A DNA stretch of 45,508 nt from Elusimicrobiota bacterium. Lineage in GTDB: Bacteria > Elusimicrobiota > Elusimicrobia > Elusimicrobiales > UBA9959. The stretch's first letter is position 1. Each line of letters begins with the position of its first letter. The position numbers were made by a program, and so were the translations under genes. The notes beneath the pieces are model-generated. The model saw only the letters and a list, made by a program, of their open reading frames with translations. It was not told the origin of the DNA and ran no database searches. The DNA is taken from positions 1 through 45,508 of the forward strand of contig JAPLKJ010000200.1 in assembly GCA_026388125.1 (NCBI GenBank), written 5' to 3'. Positions 22,830 through 45,062 of this stretch are shown here, in pieces.

Positions 22830-23684
22830 TTAAAAATCCCTCAGTTTTACTATCCGTCCTTCAACATAATACAGCGCGGACTTATTTGTCTTTTCGTTGA
22901 TAGTATAGGTCTGCGCCGTCTCTAAGTTCAAACCCATCACCGGAAAAAATCCGTGGAAAGCCGCCGAATCGACCCTTATTATACCGCCGCGTTCCCATTC
23001 CTGAAAGCCGGAAGCGACAAGTTCCTTATTGTATTTCTCCAGTTTTAACAGCAGTTCCCGGCTGATGGTTTCCAAGTGCGGATATTCCACCATGCCGCCT
23101 GCCGCCAGCGGACAAAGGAACGATCCATTTTTTGTTTTTTTTACGAATTTTATCGCCGCCAGCGTTTTCATGGCTTTCACCACTATGCTCTTTTTAAGCT
23201 TCAGCGCTTTTGCCAGAGCCTCTACCGGCCAAAGCCCGGCGTCATTTCCCATGGCCAGGGCGCATAAATATGTGTCCCGGTCAGATAACATAACGCTCAA
23301 TTGTTTGGAAGTAATATATTGCTTCCCCGCGGCCAGCGCCCTTTTCACGGGGGCATGCATAGGCGATAAGCCGAAAGTCCTTGCGCTATCCCGTATAACG
23401 GGCACCAGAGTATCCCTGAAGATCTGTTCTCCGGCCAGGGTCTTAAGCCAGGCGATAATAAATTCGTTGGCGGCCGCGCTTTTAGGTACAAGGCGCAAAC
23501 CGAACTGCAGCGCCTGTATCCTGGCAATATCAGGGAGCATTTTTCCCTGTTCCAGCATGAGATAAATGCGATAGGAAAGTTTAAGGCTGGCCGCGCCTCC
23601 GTTAGCATGATAGAACCGATATGCGGTCGGGAAGCCGGCCTCTTTGCGCAGCTTTGTAAGTAATTCCGAAAATATTGTTCCCAT
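22830..23684 (-). CDS. Two-domain helix-turn-helix regulator, paralog A
   Basis: This 284-aa protein has the same length and pattern as the protein at 37172-38026 and ends with the same VEGRI/IEGRI...LRDF tail. The N-terminal ~85 residues (FSELLTKLRKEAGF, then YLMLEQGKMLPDIARIQAL) resemble an XRE-type HTH. Residues about 150-205 (VEALAKALKLKKSIVVKAMK followed by a beta wing) resemble a winged helix. A 70-residue C-terminal domain follows. There is no transmembrane segment or sensor domain that can be named, and the target is unknown. It is transcribed outward from the accessory block at 23.7-37.1 kb. The start ATG at 23684 has GGAGG close upstream. Confidence 0.65.
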   Translation of the reverse strand: MGTIFSELLTKLRKEAGFPTAYRFYHANGGAASLKLSYRIYLMLEQGKMLPDIARIQALQFGLRLVPKSAAANEFIIAWLKTLAGEQIFRDTLVPVIRDSARTFGLSPMHAPVKRALAAGKQYITSKQLSVMLSDRDTYLCALAMGNDAGLWPVEALAKALKLKKSIVVKAMKTLAAIKFVKKTKNGSFLCPLAAGGMVEYPHLETISRELLLKLEKYNKELVASGFQEWERGGIIRVDSAAFHGFFPVMGLNLETAQTYTINEKTNKSALYYVEGRIVKLRDF

Positions 23685-24019
23685 ACCCCTCCGCGATTGG
23701 AATCTGTCAATAATGTGCAGCCAAATTCTAACCTAATTGTCCGGTTAAATCAAATACGCCGGCCAATTGCGTGTATTAAAGCGAAAGATTAGGTTACTAA
23801 TCCGCCCTCTTTAATTACCTTCCACTCCTAAGTAAAGAGGGTACGGAGTTTGAGCACTTAGCCTCAGGCCAGGCTAAAGTTCTTATTTGTAGTATTTCAA
23901 TGTGCAAATACGCATAGCGTAAGTGAGTGCCGGAAATAAAAATCCCGGAGGCGTTCTTGCATATGGCCAGGGATGGCTGACATCTGACAAGGCCTTTTCA
24001 CTAGAAGGTTAAGGAGTTT
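23685..24019 (+). promoter_or_regulatory. AT-richer structured intergenic region upstream of a response regulator
   Basis: No gene is seen in these 335 nt. Several inverted repeats follow one another: TAACC...GGTTA (about 23729-23747), GATTAG-gtta-CTAATC (23787-23802), CCCTCTTTA...TAAAGAGGG (23805-23813 with 23833-23841) and TTAGCCT-caggcc-AGGCTAA (23858-23877). The last could be an attenuator or part of a structured leader. AAGGAG at 24011-24016 is the ribosome binding site of the next gene. The function is unknown. Confidence 0.45.
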
Positions 24020-24481
24020 ATGTTTAAAGTAATGGTGATCGATGACGATGAATCCACGGTGTGTCTTCTGAAACACGTAATGGATATTGAAAAATTGGAA
24101 GTGCTTGCGGCTTATAACGGCCTTGAGGCTCTTGTTCTTCTTACCGCCGCCGATTCGGGCCGAACACTCCCGGACGTTATTATTCTTGATATTACAATGC
24201 CTAAAATGGACGGCTATGCTTTTCATTCCAGGCTCCAGGAAATAGCGAGGCTCCGGAATATCCCTATCATCGTATGCAGCGCCATGGAACAAAGAATGGA
24301 TATGTTTACGCCCTCCTCCGATATTTTCGCTTTTGTCGAAAAACCTTTTACCGTTAAAAATCTTGTGGAAACAGTAAGAGCCGCGATAGACAGCAGACTC
24401 GAATGCGGTCCTTATACGCGAATATCTCCGCCAATTAAAAATAGCGCCAGAACTCCCGTTAATTCATCGGAGCGCAAATAG
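24020..24481 (+). CDS. Single-domain response regulator (CheY-like receiver)
   Basis: This 153-aa protein has an intact receiver domain: acidic cluster DDD (8-10), phosphoacceptor Asp57 in ILDITMP, a Ser in VCSAME, and Lys108 in EKPF. About 30 polar C-terminal residues follow with no output domain. It therefore acts as a phosphorylatable switch or relay, as CheY or Spo0F do. No histidine kinase is in the window, so its partner is elsewhere. AAGGAG precedes the ATG. The following OmpR-type gene begins about 60 nt downstream on the same strand. Confidence 0.88.
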   Translation: MFKVMVIDDDESTVCLLKHVMDIEKLEVLAAYNGLEALVLLTAADSGRTLPDVIILDITMPKMDGYAFHSRLQEIARLRNIPIIVCSAMEQRMDMFTPSSDIFAFVEKPFTVKNLVETVRAAIDSRLECGPYTRISPPIKNSARTPVNSSERK

Positions 24482-37171: not shown

Positions 37172-38026
37172 ATGGCAACGATATTTTCCGAAGTGCTTAC
37201 CCAGTTAAGGAGGGATAGCGGGTTCTCCTCGGCTTACAGTTTTTACCACGATAACGGCGGCGCGCCGGTACTGATGGTCTCCTACCGCAAATACCTCCTG
37301 ATGGAACAGGGAAAGATCCTGCCTGTCATAGACAGGTTGCGGCGCCTTTTTTTCGCCTTGCGGCTGCCCCCGCAGAGCCCGCAGGCCAACACCCTGGTAG
37401 TAGCCTGGCTTAAAACCATGGCCGGGGAGGATAACTACAGGGATATATTGGAACCGATAGTTTCACCGAAGGCTGAAGTGAAAGTGGGGTCCTCGCTCCA
37501 TGAGGCGTTGAAAAAGAGCCTGGCTGATAATAAATATTTCATGTCCCCGTTCCAATTTGCCGCGGTAGTTTCCAGCTTTGATACTTATCTTTGTTATCTG
37601 GCCATGTCCAGCGAAACGGGGATCTATACCGTTGCCGAACTGGCCAAGAGCCTTAAGCTTGATAAAACCGCCGTGGCAAAAGCGGTAAAGTCCCTGGCCG
37701 AGGCCAAGCTATTGCAAAAGGTCAGACAGGGGGCTTACAAATGCCCTCTCTCGTCATATTCTTCCGTTGATTTCCCGCATATGGACCTCATGGCGCCCGG
37801 CGTGAGAGGTAAGCTGAAGGAGTATATGAGCAAGTTGGCCGCCTCCGGCAATACCGAGTGGTTCACCGCCTGCACCATCCGCGCTGACGCCGCCGCCTTC
37901 AAAGGTTATACTCCGCTGCTGCAAATGAGCGTTCATGCGGCAAAAACCTATGAGATCTCGCAGAAAACCGATACGTCCGCCCTCTACACGATAGAGGGAC
38001 GAATAACCAGGCTGCGGGATTTCTAG
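37172..38026 (+). CDS. Two-domain helix-turn-helix regulator, paralog B
   Basis: This 284-aa protein is a paralog of the protein at 22830-23684, with matching motifs: TIFSEVLTQLRRDSGF, FYHDNGGA, EQGKILP, VVAWLKTMAGE and the final IEGRITRLRDF. The N-terminal XRE-like HTH is followed by a winged-helix-like segment (VAELAKSLKLDKTAVAKAVK, then a wing YKCPLSSY) and a 70-residue C-terminal domain. It starts 48 nt after the protease gene, with AGGATAA before the ATG, so it may share that transcript. The two paralogs point outward from the block they enclose. Confidence 0.65.
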   Translation: MATIFSEVLTQLRRDSGFSSAYSFYHDNGGAPVLMVSYRKYLLMEQGKILPVIDRLRRLFFALRLPPQSPQANTLVVAWLKTMAGEDNYRDILEPIVSPKAEVKVGSSLHEALKKSLADNKYFMSPFQFAAVVSSFDTYLCYLAMSSETGIYTVAELAKSLKLDKTAVAKAVKSLAEAKLLQKVRQGAYKCPLSSYSSVDFPHMDLMAPGVRGKLKEYMSKLAASGNTEWFTACTIRADAAAFKGYTPLLQMSVHAAKTYEISQKTDTSALYTIEGRITRLRDF

Positions 38027-38470
38027 AAAGACCGGGGGCATGCCGGGCGCTGAATCCCCGGTTACATACGGCTGGCCCTCGGACAGATCATTTCCAGACC
38101 GGATATATTTTCTCAACCCTGAAATTCCAAACAGAAGCGAACGGCCTAATTCCCGATCGCTTTTTGGTCCACTTCAAAACAGCGAATTCTGAATCCGCCG
38201 GCCGCGCAGACAGAACGCTGCCGAATGCCTTGGCGTTATTCAGCCTCGCGGCAGACCATATTGGTTAAGCCATAGGCTTAACAAAAATAACTTTTGATAA
38301 ACCGCCGCTCCTAGGCCAAAAAACAAGGCGGCTCTGGTTCTTTGTCCTCAAGTACTCCAGCCTGCAAACTGAGTAAAATTATGTTCATGAGTTATGAGGG
38401 CTGTACGATAAGCGGCATATAGGTAGGAAGAAAATGTTGAGCGTAAAAAATCAGTAAAGGAGAAAAAATA
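38027..38470 (+). other. Intergenic region with perfect hairpin, no gene seen
   Basis: The 444 nt have no convincing frame. GTTAAGCC-ata-GGCTTAAC (38264-38282) is a perfect 8-bp hairpin. CCGCC...GGCGG around 38303-38333 is a second, larger one. Neither has a T-tract on the plus strand, so they are more likely regulatory or operator-like than terminators. AAAGGAG near 38456 is the ribosome binding site of the next gene. Confidence 0.4.
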
Positions 38471-39248: not shown

Positions 39249-39779
39249 ATGAGCTCATGTAAGCGTTTAATTCTCTGCGGCCTTTCGGTAGCGGCTTTTT
39301 TCGGGAGAGCCGCCGCCGGCGGGCTTCCCGCGACTGGGCCCTACGGGCCTCGCCAGGAATGCCGGGATTTCATGTTCGTGGACATCCATGCCTACTACCA
39401 GCGGGGTTTTTGATGTAGTGTTGAGCTTTCACCGTTTTGAGGCGATAACCCCGCTGGTCACTAAGAACAAGAGTTCGGGGTATTCCTTAAAGAAGCGTAC
39501 GCCAGTGTCCCCGAGTGGGCGGGACTGCTGACGGTTATGGCTCATGATGCGGATGGTGAAATTTCCCGAGCCGAACAGCGATCCTGATTTGAAAAAGTTT
39601 TTCAGGATCTCTATCGATCCATCACCGATGATGAAATCCACAGACCGGCGCTGATTCTGTCTGACAACCACTGCGAGGCTTTCCTTGGCTTGGGAGCGCA
39701 GTTTTTTGCGGCCTTCCGACGGATACTGAATAACGGCGAAAGGCAGGATCTATTACTTCTTCCTGCATACATCTGGTGA
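39249..39779 (+). pseudogene. Decayed exported protein gene
   Basis: ATG 39249 opens a signal-peptide-like start (MSSCKRLILCGLSVAAFFG) and 54 readable codons. The protein then continues in the +1 frame (DVVLSFHRFEAITPLVTKN), entered at a run of five T bases near 39410. It returns to the first frame near 39474 (FGVFLKEAYASVPEWAGLL, then AHDADGEISRAEQ, EF-hand-like). After an in-frame TGA at 39585 it runs to FRRILNNGERQDLLLLPAYIW and a stop at 39777. Two frameshifts plus a nonsense codon mark a pseudogene. It has no recognised homolog in the window. Confidence 0.6.
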
Positions 39780-39967
39780 CCCTGGCGGTCACTGAAACCG
39801 CTTTTTCCGCATAAATTTAACGTGAACCGAACGGGCAATACGTATGAGAACGAATACGTCGCCCGCGCGGGCATTCCGCCTCATGTGAAAATACGGCGGA
39901 CCCGCTAGAATATGTATGTAGCCGAACCGGAAAGAAAAACAACAGTGGTACTGCCACTTCCGGAACC
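39775..39967 (+). repeat. Intergenic cassette, copy 1 (hairpin, conserved core, promoter)
   Basis: It shares an ordered set of blocks with 43289-43476: GTGACC-ctggc-GGTCAC hairpin, the 20-nt-plus block starting CGTGAACCGAACGGGCAATA, a CGCCTCA segment, CGGACCCGCTAGAATAT with a TAGAAT -10-like box, and CCGGAAAGA...CCGGAACC. In this copy AGTGG-tactg-CCACT nests inside a CCGGAA...TTCCGG stem. It ends just before AAGGAG of the gene at 39990, so it probably supplies that gene's promoter and leader. Confidence 0.8.
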
Positions 39968-39989: not shown

Positions 39990-40508
39990 ATGAAAAATTC
40001 AATAACGGAGAAAAACAAAATGGAAAATAAAAACATAGGTCGTTTCTTAGCGCTGGCTTTGCTGATAGGCGCGGGTTTCGTGTCGGGCGCGGTTGCTTCG
40101 CCGCCCCAGGCCCCGATGCTGGCGGCAGGCTGTCAGAAGATCACCCAAAGCAATGGCGCCTGGATAGCTTCGGTCTGCCCCGCTGCCGGCAAGAACCTCG
40201 GCCACAATGTGGTTGGCGTTGATGTGTATTACTGGGGATACTTAGGCGCCCAGGAGCTGCCTTTTGGCGGCGCCACGCCTACGGTGCAGGCTTATCTTAA
40301 GGTTGACGCCGACCAGCCCGTTAATACGCCTCTTCTCAGGGACAACGGTACTTACTTTTCCAACCCCACCGGCGGAGCGTTCTTCTACGGCAGGTATCTC
40401 ACCGCTAAGCCCCTGTCCGGCGAGCTGAACCTTGAGCTGTACTTCGCGTTCAACGGCCAGGAAGACAGCGATTATAACCGGAATTACCGGACCGTGCTTA
40501 GTTTCTAA
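39990..40508 (+). CDS. Small exported protein of unknown function
   Basis: This is a 172-aa frame from ATG 39990 (AAGGAG 11 nt upstream). ATG 40021, ten bases after GGAG, is an alternative that gives a cleaner signal peptide (ENKNIGRFLALALLIGAGFV, cleavage before SPPQAP). The mature protein has two cysteines and a beta-rich pattern (VVGVDVYYWGYLGAQELPFG, LNLELYFAFNGQ), and ends in TVLSF. No family is recognised. It is preceded by cassette copy 1 and followed 22 nt later by a paralog-type exported gene. Confidence 0.65.
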   Translation: MKNSITEKNKMENKNIGRFLALALLIGAGFVSGAVASPPQAPMLAAGCQKITQSNGAWIASVCPAAGKNLGHNVVGVDVYYWGYLGAQELPFGGATPTVQAYLKVDADQPVNTPLLRDNGTYFSNPTGGAFFYGRYLTAKPLSGELNLELYFAFNGQEDSDYNRNYRTVLSF

Positions 40509-40530
40509 AACTTATTAAGGAGAAAATATA

Positions 40531-41487
40531 ATGAATAAAATCTTGCTTACGGTGCTGGCGGTGGCGGTAAGTTCGGGCGTGGTTAACGCGCTTGAGCTGG
40601 AGAAGGTGAACGCGAAAGAGATAGTGAAGCTGACGCAGACCGGGGAAATAGTTGTTCCCGCTATTCCCGCGGCCCAGGCTTCACGGGAAGCTAAGTCGGA
40701 CTGGCAGCACGGCGTTCTTCGGGCGGTAAACGGGACTGTAATAAACGTCGATTACCTTACCCGCAGGCTTGAGTCGGACCCGAATTCCGGCGATACCGCG
40801 TATGTGTACGCGGATCCGGTGTGGATAAACGTTTCAAACCCCGCGTTTACCGGGAATGAAGCTGTTACGGTGGAGCTTAGCGGCAACCCTACAGAAACCT
40901 TTAAGCTGTGGTATGCCGGCGGCGGGCGCTATACCGGCAGGCCCTCGCGGGACATCACGCTGCTCTTCCATCACCACGGCGTGGATTATCCCCAGTCGCA
41001 GGAATTGTCCGTAAGGGTGGGCGAGAACTACCTTATTGACCCGGTAAGCGTAACGGAGACCTTTAAGCTGAATCTGCCGTGGCTCAGCAATGTTACTTCC
41101 AAAGCTGTTTCGGGAACCGTTATTCCGGACGTAAAAGCGGCCGAAAGTGTTAGTTACCAATGCACGAGCCTGGATAACAACGGGCCTTACGGGATAAACG
41201 AAATTAAACTTGAGATCAATGGGCGTAACGAACCGTTGCTGCTCACTTTTACGGCCAGGAAGGAAGTGACCGAGAAGTACCTGATCGACGGAGCGTATAT
41301 CCCGAAACCCGGCAGTCCGCTGGCAGGCTTTTTTAAGGCTAATGTAAAAGATGCTGATCATACGGCCTATGCGGAGGGCGCGATCACTTCGTTCTATGTA
41401 GAGGAGCAGGTTCTACTCGGGAAGGGCGGGGTTATACAGACTTCCGGCGCGGGCTATTCCTGGGCCAGATATTCCTGTGTGCGGTAA
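40531..41487 (+). CDS. Exported protein, paralog of the one at 44493
   Basis: This 318-aa protein begins MNKILLTVLAVAVSSGVVNA, then LELEKVNAKEIVKL. Residues up to about 185 align with the protein at 44493 (shared YVYADPVW, VELSGNP, RPSRDITLLFHHHGVDY). The extra C-terminal ~130 residues carry SGTVIPDVKAAES, two cysteines near the ends (YQCTSL, RYSCVR) and a beta-rich fold. The leader AAGGAGAAAATATAATG is the same as that of the paralog. The function is unknown. It probably forms an operon with the genes on either side (gaps of 22 and 24 nt). Confidence 0.7.
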   Translation: MNKILLTVLAVAVSSGVVNALELEKVNAKEIVKLTQTGEIVVPAIPAAQASREAKSDWQHGVLRAVNGTVINVDYLTRRLESDPNSGDTAYVYADPVWINVSNPAFTGNEAVTVELSGNPTETFKLWYAGGGRYTGRPSRDITLLFHHHGVDYPQSQELSVRVGENYLIDPVSVTETFKLNLPWLSNVTSKAVSGTVIPDVKAAESVSYQCTSLDNNGPYGINEIKLEINGRNEPLLLTFTARKEVTEKYLIDGAYIPKPGSPLAGFFKANVKDADHTAYAEGAITSFYVEEQVLLGKGGVIQTSGAGYSWARYSCVR

Positions 41488-43288: not shown

Positions 43289-43476
43289 GGTGACCCTGCC
43301 GGTCACTAAAACTGATTTTCCGGCAAAAAAACAACGTGAACCGAACGGGCAATACGTATAAGTAAGAATCCGCCGCCCGCGCAGGTCTACCGCCTCAGGT
43401 TAAAATGCCGCGGACCCGCTAGAATATATATGTAGCCTGACCGGAAAGAGAAACAACGTGCGACAGTCCCGGAACC
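43289..43476 (+). repeat. Intergenic cassette, copy 2
   Basis: Copy 2 contains the GTGACC-ctgcc-GGTCAC hairpin, the block starting CGTGAACCGAACGGGCAATA, a CGCCTCA segment, CGGACCCGCTAGAATAT and CCGGAAAGA...CCGGAACC in the same order as copy 1 (39775-39967). The loop sequences and some arms differ while the pairing is kept. It ends 24 nt before the ATG of the SUMF1-type protein at 43500. Confidence 0.8.
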
Positions 43477-44408: not shown

Positions 44409-44492
44409 GACGGGTAACTTTTTAAGGTTATCTAAAGAGTATACTCGGCAAGAGCGCTCAATAAAACAGAAAAACAAAAAGGAGAAAATATA

Positions 44493-45062
44493 ATGAATAA
44501 AATAATGCTTGCGGTGCTGGCGGTGGCGGGAAGTTCGGGCGTGGTTAATGCGTTTGAGTTGGAGAAGGTGAGCGCGAAGGATGTGGCGCGGACTGAACAA
44601 GCTATTCCCGCTGTTCCTGCCTTCCAGTCTTCACTGGCGGCGGTGGGTGCTGGTCAGGACTGGCAAGATCAGGAATGGCAACACGTTGTTCTTAAGGCGA
44701 CCGACGGGACGCAGATAAGTATTGATTACCTGGCCCGCAGGCTTGATTCAGATCCGCATGCCGGAGATGCCGCGTATGTGTATGCGGACCCTGTATGGGT
44801 AAGCGTTTTAAATCCGCGCTACAGCGGAGGTGAAGAGGTAATAATGGAGCTTAGCGGCAACCCCAATGAAACTTTAAGGCTGGTGTCTGCCGGCGGCGGG
44901 CGTTTTATCGGCAAGCCTTCGCGCAACCTCACACTGCTTTTACATTATCATGGCGTGGATTACCACCAGAAGCAGAAAATATCCGTGAGGGTTTTCGGGG
45001 AACCGCTTAAGGACCCGGTCAGCGGAACTGGCGTGTTTACGGTAAGTCTGCCGTTGAAGTGA
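44493..45062 (+). CDS. Exported protein, paralog of the one at 40531
   Basis: This 189-aa protein begins MNKIMLAVLAVAGSSGVVNA, then FELEKVSAKDVART. It aligns with the first ~185 residues of the 40531 protein (SIDYLARRLDSDPHAGDAAY, YVYADPVWVSV, MELSGNPNETL, LTLLLHYHGVDY) and ends at its domain boundary, lacking the extra C-terminal domain. The upstream sequence AAAAGGAGAAAATATAATG is nearly identical to that of the paralog. The function is unknown. Confidence 0.7.
   Translation: MNKIMLAVLAVAGSSGVVNAFELEKVSAKDVARTEQAIPAVPAFQSSLAAVGAGQDWQDQEWQHVVLKATDGTQISIDYLARRLDSDPHAGDAAYVYADPVWVSVLNPRYSGGEEVIMELSGNPNETLRLVSAGGGRFIGKPSRNLTLLLHYHGVDYHQKQKISVRVFGEPLKDPVSGTGVFTVSLPLK

Follow-up and report, generated by a model that had tools for sequence, protein, structure and literature searches.

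The window, which is the whole 45,508-nucleotide stretch of contig JAPLKJ010000200.1 analysed here, comes from an Elusimicrobiota bacterium (assembly GCA_026388125.1). It carries two copies of an intergenic cassette (Table 1). The copies align with each other over 169 ungapped bases at 84% identity (blastn; E 5e-49 in the window, 3e-47 in the genome), which bears out the two-copy repeat described in an earlier note on this DNA. That note also had the order of the blocks, the TAGAAT box and the CGTGAACCGAACGGGCAATACGTAT block right. The repeat is real, but the ends it was given, 39967 and 43476, are slightly too far downstream. Past 39943 and 43457 the only clear similarity is CCGGAACC (39960-39967 and 43469-43476), which puts the end of the conserved unit about 30 nt 5′ of the ribosome binding site.

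The first genes behind the two copies have no meaningful similarity to each other, as had been stated, and both of their N-termini are signal-peptide-like. A second aligned segment, absent from the earlier note, joins 40517-41080 to 44479-45054 with 72% DNA identity. This segment encodes paralogs, and the cassette was thus copied inside a larger tandem operon duplication. In a relative genome (G041), a second cassette copy at L086:5139-5185 stops after CGAACGGG, where unrelated sequence takes over. It may be that tandem copies predate the split of G041 and the genome of the window (G000). At 38191-38209, 3′ of the regulator gene, 18 of 19 nt are identical to the middle of copy 2; the match is possibly a decayed cassette, or due to chance.

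Two further promoter-like stretches lie in the window. The one at 38264 precedes the exported-protein gene 38471, and its palindrome is like that of divergent regulator promoters on contigs C310 and C13. The one at 23796 has on one side a second regulator gene (22830-23684, minus strand) and on the other a gene at 24020 that encodes a response regulator, not an exported protein.

Table 1. Features of the window that bear on the cassette.
Feature	Position	Strand	Basis
Weak divergent cassette 5′ of the second regulator gene	23796-23874	+	HMM E 0.01; both GCCTCAGG and the upstream boxes present
Regulator gene, 284 aa, putative cognate regulator	37172-38026	+	Helical domain at the N-terminus, conserved; MarR/DUF4423-like winged helix in the centre
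Probable sister promoter of another type: GTTAAGCC-N3-GGCTTAAC palindrome, TCCTCA, TAAAAT	38264-38379	+	Aligned with C201, C310 and C13 promoters; weak HMM E 0.03
Cassette copy 1, long class, two TRAGC-type boxes	39775-39943	+	blastn, 84% to copy 2; profile model R1 E 1.8e-30
Inverted repeat GTGACC-N5-GGTCAC, copy 1, putative operator of the adjacent regulator family	39776-39792	+	6-N5-6 geometry, arm covariation in paralogs
Upstream box CGTGAACC, 57 nt 5′ of GCCTCA	39821-39828	+	Spacing tally, conserved columns
Second box TATGAGAA, 35 nt 5′ of GCCTCA	39843-39850	+	Spacing tally, conserved columns
GCCTCA box, copy 1, about -40 from the predicted start site	39878-39883	+	GCCTCA-N22-TANANTAT enrichment
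TAGAAT, putative -10, copy 1	39906-39911	+	T, A and the last T do not vary among 21 long-class homologs
Gene for an exported protein (172 aa, no family match) following copy 1	39990-40508	+	Signal-peptide-like N-terminus
Gene 2 of unit 1, paralogous to the 44493 gene	40531-41487	+	57% aa identity
Cassette copy 2	43289-43457	+	blastn; profile model R1 E 3.6e-28
Inverted repeat GTGACC-N5-GGTCAC, copy 2	43290-43306	+	Arm covariation
GCCTCA box, copy 2	43392-43397	+	Pattern search for GCCTCA-N22-TANANTAT
TAGAAT, putative -10, copy 2	43420-43425	+	Spacing tally, conserved columns
Exported FGE-sulfatase/SUMF1-like domain gene behind copy 2, 302 aa	43500-44408	+	Pfam PF03781 E 2.8e-46
Gene 2 of unit 2, paralogous to the 40531 gene	44493-45062	+	57% aa identity

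Architecture and distribution of the cassette

A profile iterated over some 80 regulator loci yielded 75 cassettes at E<1e-3. From 5′ to 3′ these comprise a 6-N5-6 inverted repeat, TAAAA, a (C)GTAAGCC-like box, GCCTCA and TAnnnT. In the long class a second TRAGC-type box stands 22 nt after the first and before GCCTCA, and short-class cassettes have a box related to TATGAGAA at 33-34 nt 5′ of GCCTCA. The spacing is rigid. TAnnnT is found exactly 28 nt from the start of GCCTCA in 57 of 71 cassettes, and for most cassettes the inverted-repeat box is 88-89 nt (long class) or 64-66 nt (short class) from GCCTCA, a step of about two helical turns. Conservation runs just beyond the -10 box and not across the 5′UTR. 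Transcription would start near 39918 at copy 1 and near 43432 at copy 2.

The arms of the inverted repeat vary together. Their 37 distinct pairs hold 150 complementary positions compared with 106.6 ± 6.4 after shuffling, a comparison that is inflated by shared descent. Perfect arm pairs include GTGACC/GGTCAC in the window and GTGTCC/GGACAC, GTGCTC/GAGCAC, GTGCCC/GGGCAC and GAGAAG/CTTCTC elsewhere. Five different perfect pairs in a single geometry appear hard to obtain by shared descent alone, and such covariation would be expected of a dimeric operator that tracks its diverged paralogous regulators.

Genome-wide counts for the window's genome come from searches of the 311 contigs of its 3.47-Mb assembly. 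The earlier note had named a lack of further copies in the genome as grounds against its reading; many copies were found. Three of these are strong (contigs C234, C121 and C232), and each lies directly 3′ of a regulator-family gene and directly 5′ of an exported-protein gene. The inverted repeat at C121 is GAGAAG/CTTCTT. The layout of the window is the same, except that gene 38471 and its own promoter are interposed. Of 150 genomes searched by blastn, 9 have the cassette, counting that of the window, and approximately 75 relatives were located in Elusimicrobia loci. For 48 of the 75 cassettes at E<1e-3 a regulator is no more than 200 nt away: 16 follow it on the same strand, 31 precede it on the opposite strand, where the cassette sits between two gene starts, and one is arranged in some other way. 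Hence 47 of the 48 are downstream co-oriented or upstream divergent; as the loci were fetched for holding a regulator, it is this orientation rule and not the adjacency itself that is informative. Regulators are present in the distant Elusimicrobia families f11-f15, where just 2 of 20 loci show the core promoter next to the regulator.

The 3′ part of the cassette also occurs elsewhere in the genome. GCCTCA-N21-23-TANANTAT has 20 matches, 18 of them at exactly 22 nt, while control spacings gave four matches at N10-20 (eleven shorter spacings) and three at N24-34 (eleven longer spacings), and the reversed pattern gave one. By our own tally the core is found 84 times in the genus against six times for the reversed pattern; in the sister family f2 there is no excess (25 against 39, likewise our tally). 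The next gene encodes a hydrophobic N-terminus for 17 of the 20 genome matches. Many core promoters bear other palindromes: TATAAC...GTTATA at C159, C31 and C299, GTTAAGCC-N3-GGCTTAAC at C201 and at 38264 in the window, and GTAACAGGTCCTGTTAC at C179 and, nearly so, at C295. Nine promoters have a TATAAC...GTTATA-like palindrome 5′ of the core (C159, C31, C299; L240-L246, L255, L256), six of them in contig C159. Searches for a sigma-70 -35/-10 pair at 16-18 nt found none at either window copy, and given the missing pair this is to all appearance an unusual class of promoter. A terminator search at both copies returned nothing relevant on the coding strand.

The genes behind the cassettes have export in common. 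For 61 of the 66 cassettes with an ORF, a simple test of hydrophobicity scores the N-terminus encoded by the next gene as signal-peptide-like, against a background of 5 of 24 ORFs in a small sample under the same crude test. The bodies of 57 target proteins were sorted by blastp into 35 families. A common post-signal segment (for example ALELEKVSAKDV or ADFSGLQTTRVADF, followed by a Pro/Ala-rich stretch) often recurs in exported proteins whose bodies are unrelated, and was noted in window genes 40531, 41512, 43500, 44493 and 45155 and in other cassette targets. It is perhaps a sorting or pro-segment.

The adjacent regulator family

The regulator family has 19 matches in the window's genome. 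Paralogs are present in 35 of 150 relatives, and a phylum-level search found matches in 64 of 341 genomes. The relatives with names are uncultured Elusimicrobia MAGs. The N-terminal 90 residues are the most conserved part of the protein. This domain may be HTH-like, judging from its helix pattern, and it has no Pfam HTH match above cut-off. The central winged helix of the window protein matches MarR and DUF4423 weakly; its DUF4423 (PF14394) score is 15.2 bits against a Pfam cut-off of 30. DUF4423 is matched weakly by 15 of 65 family members (best member E 2.9e-5), and none of the 65 matches the NCBIfam model TIGR02147. A fold search with the AlphaFold2 model of the regulator (pLDDT 84) returned no match at E < 0.001. 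The best fold matches are mostly MarR/ArsR winged helices at E of about 0.05-0.1, mixed with methyltransferase-type folds.

Similarity between inverted repeats follows similarity between the adjacent regulators, with a rho of 0.49 for the N-terminal domain and 0.40 for the winged helix, values that could arise from shared descent alone. Similarity between cores hardly follows the adjacent regulator (rho 0.17), and many core-promoter copies in the genome have no family regulator within 1.5 kb.

Competing readings of the cassette

We favour the reading that the cassette is a DNA promoter region in which a lineage-specific operator is joined to a shared promoter core for exported-protein operons, with a probability of roughly 0.77. 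The earlier proposal of a shared regulatory element or promoter gains from the further copies, the rigid spacing to a -10-like box, the adjacency to regulator paralogs and the exported-protein targets. The promoter region would reach about 140 bp 5′ of the transcription start and would consist of two layers. The upstream 17-bp inverted repeat would be the operator, particular in sequence to each regulator lineage, and the TRAGC-type boxes, GCCTCA near -40 and TAnnnT at -10 would form a core that is common to many promoters of the genome. The neighbouring regulator, one of up to 19 paralogs, is predicted from sequence to bind the cassette, most likely as a dimer, and to recruit RNA polymerase. 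Recruitment is suggested because the boxes lie at about -140 to -35 and there is no sigma-70 -35 hexamer; with the boxes 5′ of the putative polymerase site, activation seems preferable to repression. In the window, an ancestral unit of promoter, exported-protein gene and ELEK-type gene would have been tandemly duplicated, after which the first genes came to differ, and one regulator may therefore serve both copies.

A different division of labour is conceivable, in which GCCTCA-N22-TANANTAT is the site of a dedicated alternative sigma factor and the paralogous regulators act only at the upstream palindromes. The sharing of one core by promoters with different palindromes speaks for it, as does the low correlation of the core with the adjacent regulator. 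Sigma-70-family promoters usually have a shorter gap between their hexamers than 22 nt, however, no sigma factor is linked to the core, and GCCTCA at -40 fits an activator site overlapping the -35 region equally well. We consider such a sigma factor unlikely.

The earlier note had also raised a structured RNA leader with compensatory changes. Such a leader or riboswitch-like cis-regulatory RNA would be made from a more distant upstream promoter and would act on the gene that follows. The hairpin pairing described in the note is kept at the first inverted repeat, GTGACC-N5-GGTCAC, which stays complementary with changes in both arms, but the GGGC/GCCC, ACGTAT/ATACGT and CCGCC/GGCGG pairings are lost across relatives, and the hairpins taken together covary no better than shuffles. 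Covariation of the inverted repeat would equally be seen in a DNA operator that is bound by dimers of diverged paralogs. Folding of the 5′UTR surpasses that of shuffles for copy 1 (z -2.7) but not for copy 2 (z +0.8). RNAalifold on 21 homologs gave four pairs at -2.4 kcal/mol, none changed on both sides, and an Rfam scan of the window had no match at gathering scores. The nearly gapless spacing over about 130 bases that ends in a -10-like box, the position of the element between two gene starts in divergent loci, the placement of the conserved part 5′ of the predicted start site with the putative -10 at its 3′ end, and the diversity of the targets all fit DNA. An RNA leader is thus very unlikely. 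The other suggestion, a mobile promoter, or a MITE-like element that reaches sites 5′ of genes by transposition, would account for several dispersed copies, two of them within one locus, and for the 8-bp repeat GGTTCCGG/CCGGAACC that flanks copy 2. The left repeat is missing at copy 1, however, and no terminal repeats are consistent across homologs. The cassettes keep a fixed orientation to regulator genes, the window pair is part of the larger operon duplication, and a pattern scan of viral contigs had no match, all of which leaves mobility extremely improbable.

Relation to known systems and biological meaning

Operators adjacent to regulators are a known kind of arrangement. The DNA promoter reading resembles one-component MarR/winged-helix systems in that the regulator gene lies beside its presumed target, the inverted repeat is short and of dimeric type, and the layout is divergent or co-oriented. 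Unlike those systems, the cassette joins one rigid shared core to lineage-specific inverted repeats, and exported proteins here have a large family of paralogs dedicated to them. We take the DUF4423/TIGR02147-type regulators of Fibrobacter and Bdellovibrio to be the closest regulator family context. Many paralogs in one genome and the weak DUF4423 matches are shared with them, whereas the missing TIGR02147 match and the low DUF4423 score of the window protein set the family apart; in the literature found, no operator is described for regulators of that type. Class II activator-dependent promoters have a weak -35. The cassette is like them in its -10-like box, the lack of a recognisable -35 hexamer and a conserved box near -40, but it has further boxes to about -140, fixed spacing and two length classes. 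In the open-licence literature searched, nothing was found on the cassette promoter or its regulator family, nor on the combination of a rigid common core, lineage-specific palindromes and a large paralog family for exported proteins.

Tentatively, the system might be a dedicated control of the surface coat, in which paralogous regulators with their own palindromes and one common core (possibly with its own sigma factor) choose between interchangeable sets of exported proteins that have a common post-signal N-terminal segment. With the cassette, the cis-regulatory code of exported-protein genes in an uncultured Elusimicrobia lineage becomes readable, and up to 19 unnamed regulators of one family are tied to their likely targets. 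The cassettes also provide diverged regulator/operator pairs, a natural set built on one fixed core, which is useful for understanding how paralogous regulators keep their specificities apart.
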